Shown here: positions 37,905-40,724 of the stretch, one piece after another
Layout: every line of letters begins with the position of its first letter
Position numbering within the stretch: position 1 is the first letter of the stretch
NCBI RefSeq assembly: GCF_003752135.1
Contig: NZ_RJVK01000003.1
Coordinates: 124,001 to 188,000, forward strand
Origin: Caminibacter pacificus
Lineage (GTDB): Bacteria; Campylobacterota; Campylobacteria; Campylobacterales; Nautiliaceae
Reading direction: 5' to 3'
DNA: 64,000 nt
Notes under the pieces: generated by a model
Database searches by the model: none
What the model was told of the DNA's origin: nothing
What the model saw: only the letters and a program-made list of their open reading frames with translations
Made by a program: the position numbers and the translations under genes

Positions 37905-39188
37905 TTATACGCCGTTTGGGCTATATTCTACTTTTTTTCTCAAAAAGGTAAGCGGCGGCAATTTGCAAGGAAGCATAATCGGATTTTGGTTCCCGCTATG
38001 CACCGCGTTTAATTCTTTACCGCTTTTTGTAACTATTTTATTAAATTTTAAATACCACTTGCCATCTTCTTGCCAAATTTTACCTATCTCGTTTTCACAA
38101 GGTGAAATTTTAGCATTTTTAGGTAGTAAAATTTCAACAACGTCACCCGGAAAAGTTTTATATTTACACATAAAACTATCACCCTCTTGCGTAACTACTC
38201 CGCTTACCTGCCACTCTCCGTGAGTCAAAGAAGTCTCAAGATTTTGCGTATCGTCTCTTTCATAAGGTCTTTTAACTAAATACGCATCCGTCAAGCCTCT
38301 ATTTTTGGTCGTTAAAATCTCTTTATAATATTTTTCGCAATCGCATTTTCCGCTGCTTAAATATTCGTCAATCGCATCTCTATAAGCTTTTGTAACCACC
38401 GCGACGTAATAAGGCGCTTTGGTTCTACCTTCTATTTTCAAACTATCCACAACTCCGGCATCCAAAATTTCCGGAATATGTTTAATAAGACATAAATCCT
38501 TAGCGTTCATTATATAAGTGCCGTCTTCATATTCTTCCATTTTAAACATAGTACCGGTCTCCGGATTTTCGGCATATAAAACATACGGATACCTACAATC
38601 GTTGGCACAACTTCCTTTGTTCGGGTTTCTTCCGAATTGCACGGCACTTAAAAGACATCTTCCGCTATACGCAAAACACATAGCACCATGAACGAAAATC
38701 TCTATTTCCACATCGGGTACTTTTTCTTTTATTTTTATCAAATCCTTAAGACTTGTCTCCCTTGCCGCAATAATTCTCTTTACTCCGAAATCCCTATACG
38801 CTTTATAATCCCAAGAATTAAGAGCGTTTGCTTGAGTTGAGAGATGAATATCTATTTCGGGTGCTATCTCTTTTGCTTTTGCAATAACCCCGAGTGTCGA
38901 AATAATCATCGCATCAACGCCGATTTCTTTTAATTTTTTAATATGAGACTCGACTAAAGGAAGCTGATTTTCAAAAGGAAAGGAATTTACAGTAGCATAT
39001 ACCTTTACGCCTCTTTCATGAGCATAATCCACCGCTTCTTTAAACGTTTCGTAATCAAACTCTTTTCCGCTGTGACAACGCAAAGAAAAATGACTCACTC
39101 CCGCATAAACGGCATCCGCTCCGTATTCTATTGCGATTTTAAGCTTTTCGAAATCACCGGCCGGTGCTAAAAGTTCAGGTTTTTTCAT
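37905..39188 (-). CDS. U32 family protein, TrhP/YegQ-like tRNA hydroxylation factor
   Basis: PELLAPAGDFEKLKIAIEYGADAVY start, FVHGAMCFAYSGRCLLS and GSCANDCRYPY are U32 signatures, with Cys residues that fit an iron-sulfur site; the C-terminal barrel-like domain completes 427 aa. Earlier named collagenase/PrtC; YegQ-type members (TrhP) are now tied to 5-hydroxyuridine formation in tRNA, so a tRNA-modifying role is more likely than proteolysis. Follows cheZ by 3 bases. Confidence 0.88.
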   Translation of the reverse strand: MKKPELLAPAGDFEKLKIAIEYGADAVYAGVSHFSLRCHSGKEFDYETFKEAVDYAHERGVKVYATVNSFPFENQLPLVESHIKKLKEIGVDAMIISTLGVIAKAKEIAPEIDIHLSTQANALNSWDYKAYRDFGVKRIIAARETSLKDLIKIKEKVPDVEIEIFVHGAMCFAYSGRCLLSAVQFGRNPNKGSCANDCRYPYVLYAENPETGTMFKMEEYEDGTYIMNAKDLCLIKHIPEILDAGVVDSLKIEGRTKAPYYVAVVTKAYRDAIDEYLSSGKCDCEKYYKEILTTKNRGLTDAYLVKRPYERDDTQNLETSLTHGEWQVSGVVTQEGDSFMCKYKTFPGDVVEILLPKNAKISPCENEIGKIWQEDGKWYLKFNKIVTKSGKELNAVHSGNQNPIMLPCKLPPLTFLRKKVEYSPNGV

Positions 39189-39191
39189 ACA

Positions 39192-39890
39192 TCACACTCC
39201 GAACTGCTCGAGTAACGCTTCGATATCTTCGTCGCTAACGGTCTCACTTTCGTCTCCATGAATATGATTTGCGCTTTTAACTCTCTCTTCATCGTCGATT
39301 TTTCCTTCGAATAATTTATTCATATATTTTATCAATGCTCTCATAATATTTATAACTCTTTCTATTTTTTGACGATGGATGTCTTGATATTGCATAATCT
39401 CCATCGCCGTCATTATTTTATCTTGAGTCTCTTCGTTGCTTTCTATAGCTTTTTTGACTTTTTCAATCATTTCGTCAATTTTTTCAAGCTCGGTTTTAAA
39501 AGTTTTAATATGAGGAAACTTTTCGACAAGCTTGGAAAAAAGCTCTTTTTGGTGAACGAAAAAATCAAGTACGTCGTTTAGGTCTTCATTTGCGTAGCTT
39601 ACGGCTTCGGATATTTCATCCATGATGTCTATAACCTGAGAGGCTTTTTCTTCGCTCTCTTTTGTTACTTCGTCAAGCTGAGCTACGACTCTGTGCTTAT
39701 CATCCGCAGGCGGAGGATATATCTCTTCGCTATCTTCATCTTTTGGCTCGCTATCTTCTACCGCTTCATCCAAAATTCCCTCAAGCAAATCATCTTCGCT
39801 TTGGTCGTTTTGATTTTCTTCGCTCTCTTCAAGAGCGTCGATACCCTCGATATCACCGTCCATTAAAGCGTCAAGTTCCTCTTGTGTCAT
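39192..39890 (-). CDS. cheZ: Remote CheZ-type CheY-phosphate phosphatase
   Basis: 232 aa, start at the ATG at 39890 (GAGGTGGCTT upstream). Long four-helix-type hairpin in the second half with YQDIHRQ, which supplies the DxxxQ catalytic pair (D170, Q174) of CheZ. The acidic Pro-containing linker (about 22-64) is low complexity. The C-terminal SDEDIEALLEQFGV matches the CheZ CheY-binding tail in pattern. The N-terminal TQEELDALMDG looks like the FliM CheY-binding peptide. The neighbour order cheZ-U32-purE matches C. jejuni from memory. Inferred role: dephosphorylates CheY-P to reset motor switching. Confidence 0.87.
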   Translation of the reverse strand: MTQEELDALMDGDIEGIDALEESEENQNDQSEDDLLEGILDEAVEDSEPKDEDSEEIYPPPADDKHRVVAQLDEVTKESEEKASQVIDIMDEISEAVSYANEDLNDVLDFFVHQKELFSKLVEKFPHIKTFKTELEKIDEMIEKVKKAIESNEETQDKIMTAMEIMQYQDIHRQKIERVINIMRALIKYMNKLFEGKIDDEERVKSANHIHGDESETVSDEDIEALLEQFGV

Positions 39891-39912
39891 AAGCCACCTC
39901 TTTTTTTGATAT

Positions 39913-39924
39913 ATTATATATAAT
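39913..39924. promoter_or_regulatory. Divergent -10 boxes between cheZ and hisJ
   Basis: TATAAT on the plus strand (39919-39924) precedes hisJ by about 20 bases, and TATAAT on the minus strand (39913-39918) precedes cheZ by about 22. The two boxes abut, so the two transcripts probably compete for polymerase. Confidence 0.45.
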
Positions 39925-39944
39925 TTCACTAAAAAAGGCAAAAA

Positions 39945-40724
39945 ATGGTCGATTTACACAACCACACCCCGCTTTGCAACCACGCCGAAGGTACACCTGA
40001 TGAGTACATTCAAGAAGCGATCAAAAAAGGAATAAAAGTTTACGGATTCGCAGACCACGCTCCTATGAATTTCGACCCACAATATCGTATGGAATTTAGC
40101 GATATGCAAACCTATGAAAAAGAGATTAAAATTCTAAAAGAAAAGTATAAAAACGATATAAAGATATTACTCGGATACGAAGTCGATTTCACACCGAAAA
40201 AATACCTCGACAAAAGAGTTTTGAATGCCGATGTCGATTATTTGATAGGAAGCGTTCATTTTTTGGATAATTGGGGGTTTGATAATCCGGAGTTTATAAA
40301 AGAGTGGGACAAAAGAGACGTTGATGACGTTTATAAAGAGTATTTCAAATACATAAAAGAACTTGCCGAATCAAAACTTTTCAATATCGTAGGACACTTG
40401 GATTTGGTAAAAGTATTCGGTCACAAACCTAAAAAAAATATAAAAGATTTGGCAAAAGAAGCGATAAAAGCCATAAAAAAATCGAATATAGCGGTAGAAA
40501 TCAATACGGCAGGTCTTAGAAAACCGGTAAAAGAAGCTTATCCCTCAGACGAACTCCTTGAAATGATACTCGAAGAAAATATCGACCTAACGACTTCAAG
40601 CGACGCTCATTCGCCAAACCAAGTAGGATTTATGCTAAAAGAGACCACTCAAAAACTTAAAAAAATGGGAGTTGAGAAGTTGGTATATTTTGAAAAAAAA
40701 GAGAAAAGAGAGTTTAAAATTTAA
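39945..40724 (+). CDS. hisJ: PHP-family histidinol-phosphatase
   Basis: Histidine biosynthesis: dephosphorylates histidinol phosphate. PHP metal motifs: VDLHNHTPLCNHAEG at the N-terminus, FADHAP, GYEVDFTP, IGSVHFLD, IVGHLDLVK and SSDAHSP. 259 aa is normal for the HisJ/HisK type. No other his genes are in the window. Ends tail-to-tail with the lipoprotein gene, sharing TTAA. Confidence 0.9.
   Translation: MVDLHNHTPLCNHAEGTPDEYIQEAIKKGIKVYGFADHAPMNFDPQYRMEFSDMQTYEKEIKILKEKYKNDIKILLGYEVDFTPKKYLDKRVLNADVDYLIGSVHFLDNWGFDNPEFIKEWDKRDVDDVYKEYFKYIKELAESKLFNIVGHLDLVKVFGHKPKKNIKDLAKEAIKAIKKSNIAVEINTAGLRKPVKEAYPSDELLEMILEENIDLTTSSDAHSPNQVGFMLKETTQKLKKMGVEKLVYFEKKEKREFKI

Follow-up and report, generated by a model that had tools for sequence, protein, structure and literature searches.

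Does a CheY-P phosphatase that opens with the N-terminal peptide of the motor switch protein FliM carry a second docking site for CheY? The gene that raises this question, cheZ, occupies positions 39192–39890 of the minus strand of the window (the whole stretch of 64,000 nucleotides from Caminibacter pacificus analysed here) and encodes 232 amino acids plus a stop codon, the coding sequence of a CheZ of the F3 chemotaxis class. The protein reads MTQEELDALMDG...SDEDIEALLEQFGV, and translation of the plus strand at 39192–39890 is interrupted by stops. It matches NF041271 (Phos_CheZ, protein phosphatase CheZ) with an E-value of 1.9e-55 over positions 1–240 of the 242-position profile and residues 1–231 of the protein, and the Pfam family CheZ (PF04344) with an E-value of 0.0026. 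Both scores fall below the cut-offs (188 bits against 350 and 18.1 bits against 30.7, respectively), which are tuned to other lineages, that of NF041271 to Helicobacter, and are not biological features. Using phmmer against PDB sequences, we found no relevant match to the window CheZ. Directly downstream on the same strand is the ORF 37905–39188, presumably a member of the U32 peptidase family (trhP), an assignment that follows published gene order and marks the context of an F3-class cheZ. This arrangement fits the cheZ–trhP order, which an excerpt of PMC9321776 gives as conserved in F3-class Campylobacterota. A divergent gene at 39945–40724 (plus strand) starts only 54 bases from cheZ. The stretch just upstream of cheZ (39891–39950), which is similar in some relatives of the same family, contains gaggtgg just 5′ of the ATG as a likely ribosome-binding site. 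Among the best 80 of the 402 matches in a species-level scan, the closest named loci to the window cheZ are Nautiliaceae assemblies. Judged by its sequence, the window gene is an F3-class CheZ of the Campylobacterota and a predicted CheY-P phosphatase.

The protein begins MTQEELDALMD (residues 1–11). Sequence, conservation and a predicted helix mark residues 2–11, TQEELDALMD (39858–39887, minus strand, as for all features of the protein), as a FliM-like motif of the CheY-docking type. Behind it lies an acidic, variable and probably disordered linker (residues 12–58; 39717–39857), recognized by composition, conservation and pLDDT; Asp and Glu make up 48% of residues 11–58 and Lys and Arg 2%. 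The AlphaFold2 model of the single chain, built on a 47-row alignment (mean pLDDT 73.2, pTM 0.50), predicts the helical hairpin of CheZ, with a first long helix at residues 68–124 (39519–39689) and a second, which bears the active site, at residues 129–195 (39306–39506). In known CheZs such hairpins pair into a four-helix bundle, and the window CheZ is presumably dimeric too. Fold searches with the hairpin returned generic long-helix hairpins only, none with an E-value below 0.001 and 1KMI not among them, and are uninformative for a single hairpin. In the translation, the catalytic DxxxQ (D170-I-H-R-Q174; 39369–39383) lies within MQYQDIHRQK, with the codons of D170 and Q174 at 39381–39383 and 39369–39371, and both residues are invariant in the 47 rows. 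The C-terminal tail SDEDIEALLEQFGV (residues 219–232; 39195–39236) is assigned to the CheY-binding type by its likeness to the E. coli CheZ tail and by a predicted last helix, residues 220–231, that contains SDEDIEALLEQFG. The catalytic pair, the acidic linker between the two ends and the CheZ-like C-terminus had all been proposed in an earlier note on this DNA, and each is borne out. At the N-terminus, a helix is predicted at residues 3–11 (mean pLDDT 69 over residues 1–10), followed by pLDDT below 50 at residues 13–57, which in the model has the look of a tethered short helix, the model being silent on its partner.

The note had also likened the N-terminus to the FliM peptide, and this likeness holds: all 30 fetched FliMs begin with [ST]Q[EDN]EIDALL, and the CheZ peptide is identical to the FliM of its own genome at six of nine residues. 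Both peptides stand at the extreme N-terminus, share the consensus S/T-Q-x-E-hydrophobic-D-A-L and have a flexible stretch behind them, and the window CheZ carries the form S/T-Q-[ED]-E-[IL]-D-A-L in this position. Almost throughout, however, CheZ replaces the I of FliM by L and its second L by M (TQEELDALM compared to SQEEIDALL), and the motif is located on the phosphatase in CheZ but on the motor in FliM. The strict DNA pattern Q[ED][ED]-hydrophobic-DA[LF] matches the 1.86-Mb genome twice, in FliM (MADILSQEEIDALL) and at the N-terminus of CheZ only, and gives no match when read backwards. A looser six-residue pattern, with 85 matches compared to 30 backwards, was unspecific and was dropped as evidence.

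The known partner of the FliM N-terminal peptide is CheY, and FliM and CheZ bind an overlapping face of it. From the CheY–FliM structure we chose CheY positions 92, 95, 106, 108, 109, 111, 116, and 119 (E. coli numbering) as those presumably relevant for docking. Ten of 10 CheYs, that of the window's genome included, are identical to E. coli CheY at positions 92, 106, 108, 109, 111, 116, and 119 and have Val at position 95; the face to which FliM and the tail of CheZ bind is conserved. The CheY of this genome (L383, G000:C5 near 137961–138173) has an insertion of ~17 residues between α3 and β4, which is absent in the nine other aligned CheYs. On balance, we consider it probable that the N-terminus of CheZ serves as an additional, FliM-type docking helix for CheY, held on a long acidic tether.

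TQEELDALM is nevertheless not identical to SQEEIDALL, and a receiver domain other than CheY could be the partner. The main rival to CheY docking is docking elsewhere for placement: the N-terminal helix would bind the CheA receiver, CheV or ChePep, which we take to have a receiver-like domain, and would bring CheZ to the pole or the array rather than capture CheY-P. We regard this as unlikely, given the known partner of the FliM peptide and the two CheV-type receivers (L380 and L390), which lack matching docking residues in that they differ from CheY at positions 92, 95, and 119. One CheA receiver (L377, the single CheA row that aligned) differs at the same three positions. A 2015 H. pylori paper reportedly mapped polar placement of CheZ to the central domain, which counts against placement by the N-terminus. 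However, polar placement of H. pylori CheZ depends on ChePep according to excerpts of PMC11237671 and PMC7750401, CheO binds CheZ in C. jejuni (excerpt of PMC9665402), and phosphatase activity survives loss of the N-terminus, a result to which we return below.

The earlier note had named homologues lacking the motif as one result that would refute its reading. We assembled 207 CheZ loci: 48 from relatives (CheZ was matched in 48 of 60), the 80 best named of 402 confirmed matches from the species-level scan, the 30 best from a phylum draw of 397 genomes, 20 chosen as weak or odd, and 30 chosen for Helicobacter-, Campylobacter- and Arcobacter-like genera and as pattern-negative cases, with L231 shared with the phylum draw; the set is biased toward close relatives and deliberate exceptions. 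CheZ-like ORFs were obtained from 206 of the 207 loci, 187 of them distinct, and the expressions for the N motif, the catalytic motif, and the C motif were matched by 176, 179, and 176 of these, respectively. As L250 has Lys in place of the catalytic Gln, DxxxQ is intact in 178 of 187. Within these 178 ORFs the N motif is present in 172 and the C motif in 174, so that homologues without the N motif did not appear in the way the note had envisaged. Three of the six misses are close variants (TQAELDAL in L231, TDAELAAL in L043, and TKEELDRL in L039); in the others the stretch is masked in the source (L018/L141), the frame starts after the N-terminal part (L287), or the protein is a short 132-aa form (L258). 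In L274 (G276), the full CheZ frame opens at TQEELDAL right after a stop codon, and the usual ATG start is absent.

In the 47-row alignment, the commonest residue has a mean share of 0.91 over residues 1–10, compared to 0.28 over the linker (11–57), 0.85 over the catalytic stretch (160–196), and 0.70 over the tail (218–230). The strict pattern, the ORF counts and these shares each speak against chance as the source of the N-terminal motif, whose conservation matches that of the catalytic helix while the linker next to it drifts. The motif is shared by almost all of the phylum and is not a peculiarity of the window's genome. Across 130 distinct proteins, the peptide TQEELDAL is spelled out in 89 different DNA sequences, which places the selection on the amino acids. 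This freedom of synonymous codons argues against a signal for translation, stability or N-terminal processing unrelated to CheY, which would otherwise fit a motif that opens the protein; the conserved residues are also those of the FliM peptide, and similar copies occur far inside the chain in the Arcobacteraceae-like proteins described below. We give such a signal very little credence.

In the phylum draw, CheZ was found in 328 of 397 genomes and a start-anchored DNA pattern in 342 (17 when read backwards), with matches in 313 of the 328 CheZ genomes and 29 of the 69 genomes without CheZ. Among the 15 genomes with CheZ but no pattern match, nine (G078, G110, G116, G233, G271, G276, G281, G306, and G309) have variants that the DNA pattern cannot match, for example TQEELNALL or translation starting at GTG. 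The frame is cut in one genome (G181), and the remaining five (G261, G321, G347, G382, and G383) have solely degenerate or short CheZ-like ORFs. We examined 23 of the 29 CheZ-less, pattern-positive genomes, and at 28 of 29 loci the match was inside a longer unrelated ORF; in L316 it opens an unrelated 201-aa ORF, and one further match has no locus. Pattern counts alone therefore overstate the motif, and the ORF-based counts are the trustworthy ones.

Eight ORFs lack the catalytic expression, and the N motif is absent from five of them (L254, L255, L256, L259, and L260) and kept in three (L252, L253, and L257). Retention of the motif without an active site would fit docking without catalysis, or slow decay. 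L252–L255, from the Helicobacter-like genus g42, and L256, L259, and L260, from genus g68, are degenerate CheZ-like proteins in which the motif is kept in two and lost in the rest. On the more doubtful collector reading given below, the catalytically decayed Helicobacter CheZs that keep it (L252 and L253) could be pure CheY-P buffers.

The strongest contrary fact to docking comes from H. pylori. Excerpts of PMC11237671 describe the N-terminal region of H. pylori CheZ as ‘of unknown function’ and report that its deletion leaves phosphatase activity and the role in biofilm intact. As the phosphatase survives this deletion, the motif is evidently not needed for catalysis there, and it would tune capture, competition or placement instead. 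The same excerpts report no phosphatase defect for N-terminal deletions, as expected if the motif had no function and were a relic of common descent; the motif is as well conserved as the catalytic helix, next to a linker at 0.28, which makes a relic the least credible of the explanations considered here, with next to no chance of being right.

Further evidence for docking comes from one lineage in which the motif is multiplied. In 14 CheZs of family f9, further motif copies, e.g. VSTDDIDELLASID and MSDDDIEAMLASIG, lie in the arm that precedes the core. In three of three genomes checked, cheY lies directly before cheZ, and because an excerpt of PMC9321776 gives this order for Arcobacter, we refer to the family as Arcobacteraceae-like. 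The strict seven-residue form occurs in 17 copies in 10 of the 14 proteins, compared to 0.9 in whole shuffles (maximum 5), 1.0–1.2 in block shuffles (maximum 6), and 5 in the reversed sequence, and a looser form occurs in 30 copies in 12 of 14, compared to ~4.5 in shuffles and 18 reversed; the 14 proteins are related, so these copy counts are not independent. Partial palindromy of the motif explains the high reversed-sequence control. In the L295 model (mean pLDDT 65.5, 14-row alignment), predicted helices at residues 5–12, 65–77, 89–102, 116–127, and 140–151 coincide with five N-terminal copies and a helix at 347–358 with the tail, while a helix at 170–181 has no motif copy. Extra copies were also sought in the ordinary CheZ linkers of 160 other proteins and were dropped, with 2 found compared to 1.9 in shuffles. 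Two genomes of this family encode a second, short CheZ-like protein of 155–162 aa with MTQEELDALMAG at its start and with both the catalytic motif and the tail retained (L262/L269 in G234 and L263/L268 in G166), and other f9 genomes have CheZ-like forms of 116–132 aa without the N motif.

These arrays bear on whether the motif acts in cis. In that case the N-terminal helix would mimic FliM or the tail of CheZ, fold back onto a CheY already bound at the active site and regulate release or dimer exchange without a net increase in affinity. Such a regulator would suit the likeness of the N- and C-terminal motifs, which would be rivals for a single CheY face, and the long, flexible linker. A larger number of docking sites, however, accounts for the arrays more readily than a single cis regulator does, and we consider action in cis distinctly improbable. 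A role of the motif as the mark of a motor-localized CheZ pool was also considered and was dropped for want of evidence.

Docking to CheY is thus favoured by the near-invariant motif, its FliM likeness, the conserved CheY face, a helix between disordered stretches, the multiplication in the Arcobacteraceae-like proteins, and the absence of the motif from five of eight catalytic-negative ORFs. From these comparisons we infer binding, phospho-preference, avidity, and competition with FliM. The N-terminal helix would grip CheY at its α4–β5–α5 face, with a preference for CheY-P like that of FliM, and each CheZ dimer would then offer four docking helices rather than two. On its acidic arm it would capture CheY-P and hold it close to the active site or apart from FliM, while the CheZ tail would present CheY to DxxxQ. 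Extra CheY-P held near the active site would raise the local concentration, and CheZ would compete with FliM for the CheY-P signal. We regard this avidity model, which the note had suggested, as plausible. A broader and more doubtful possibility, which we offer tentatively, is that Campylobacterota CheZ is a multivalent collector of CheY-P, with two docking helices per protomer across the phylum and, in the Arcobacteraceae-like arrays, up to five N-terminal helices plus the tail (~12 per dimer), such that the CheY-P level would be set not by catalysis alone but also by capture, buffering, and competition with FliM. A FliM-like helix may explain a region of Helicobacter and Campylobacter CheZ whose role excerpts of PMC11237671 report as unknown. 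If true, a second CheY-P tether would set how the signal is shared between phosphatase and motor. The number of docking sites would vary naturally, with two in most lineages, arrays in the Arcobacteraceae-like proteins, and decay in some Helicobacter, providing material for asking how this number affects switching.

We finally compared the window CheZ with known systems. The gammaproteobacterial CheZ of E. coli (PDB 1KMI) has in common with it DxxxQ, a helical hairpin (predicted here), a flexible linker, and a C-terminal helix, which in 1KMI binds CheY. A weak whole-profile match to chain Z of 1kmi (E-value 0.031) covers the active site and tail, with the tails aligned, and the window tail SDEDIEALLEQFGV resembles the E. 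coli tail SQDQVDDLLDSLGF at the sequence level. In an outgroup consisting of E. coli CheZ and six from 75 plasmid records (Cupriavidus, Halomonas, Pantoea, Pseudomonas, Photobacterium, and Proteus), none of the seven beta- and gammaproteobacterial CheZs has a FliM-like N-terminus, whereas all seven have a tail of the QDxVDDLLxSLG type. As judged by this small outgroup of seven, the motif at the N-terminus seems to have been gained in the Campylobacterota lineage. H. pylori CheZ (HP0170; NF041271) belongs to the same protein family and has the same N-terminal motif: the H. pylori-like L278, which starts MTQEELDALMNGG, scores 503 bits, above the Helicobacter-tuned cut-off, compared to the 188 bits of the window CheZ below it. 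Bacillus subtilis FliY is, like CheZ, a CheY-P phosphatase, although it is a switch protein of the CheC/FliN type whose fold is unrelated to that of CheZ. It also carries an N-terminal CheY-binding motif, as given in an excerpt of PMC8809382, while the FliY of the window's genome has no FliM-like N-terminus. A statement of an N-terminal CheY motif in CheZ was not found in the open-licence PMC literature and may be in print elsewhere. Relative to the known CheZ family, the new elements suggested by these comparisons are a second putative docking motif and one lineage in which it appears to be expanded into arrays.
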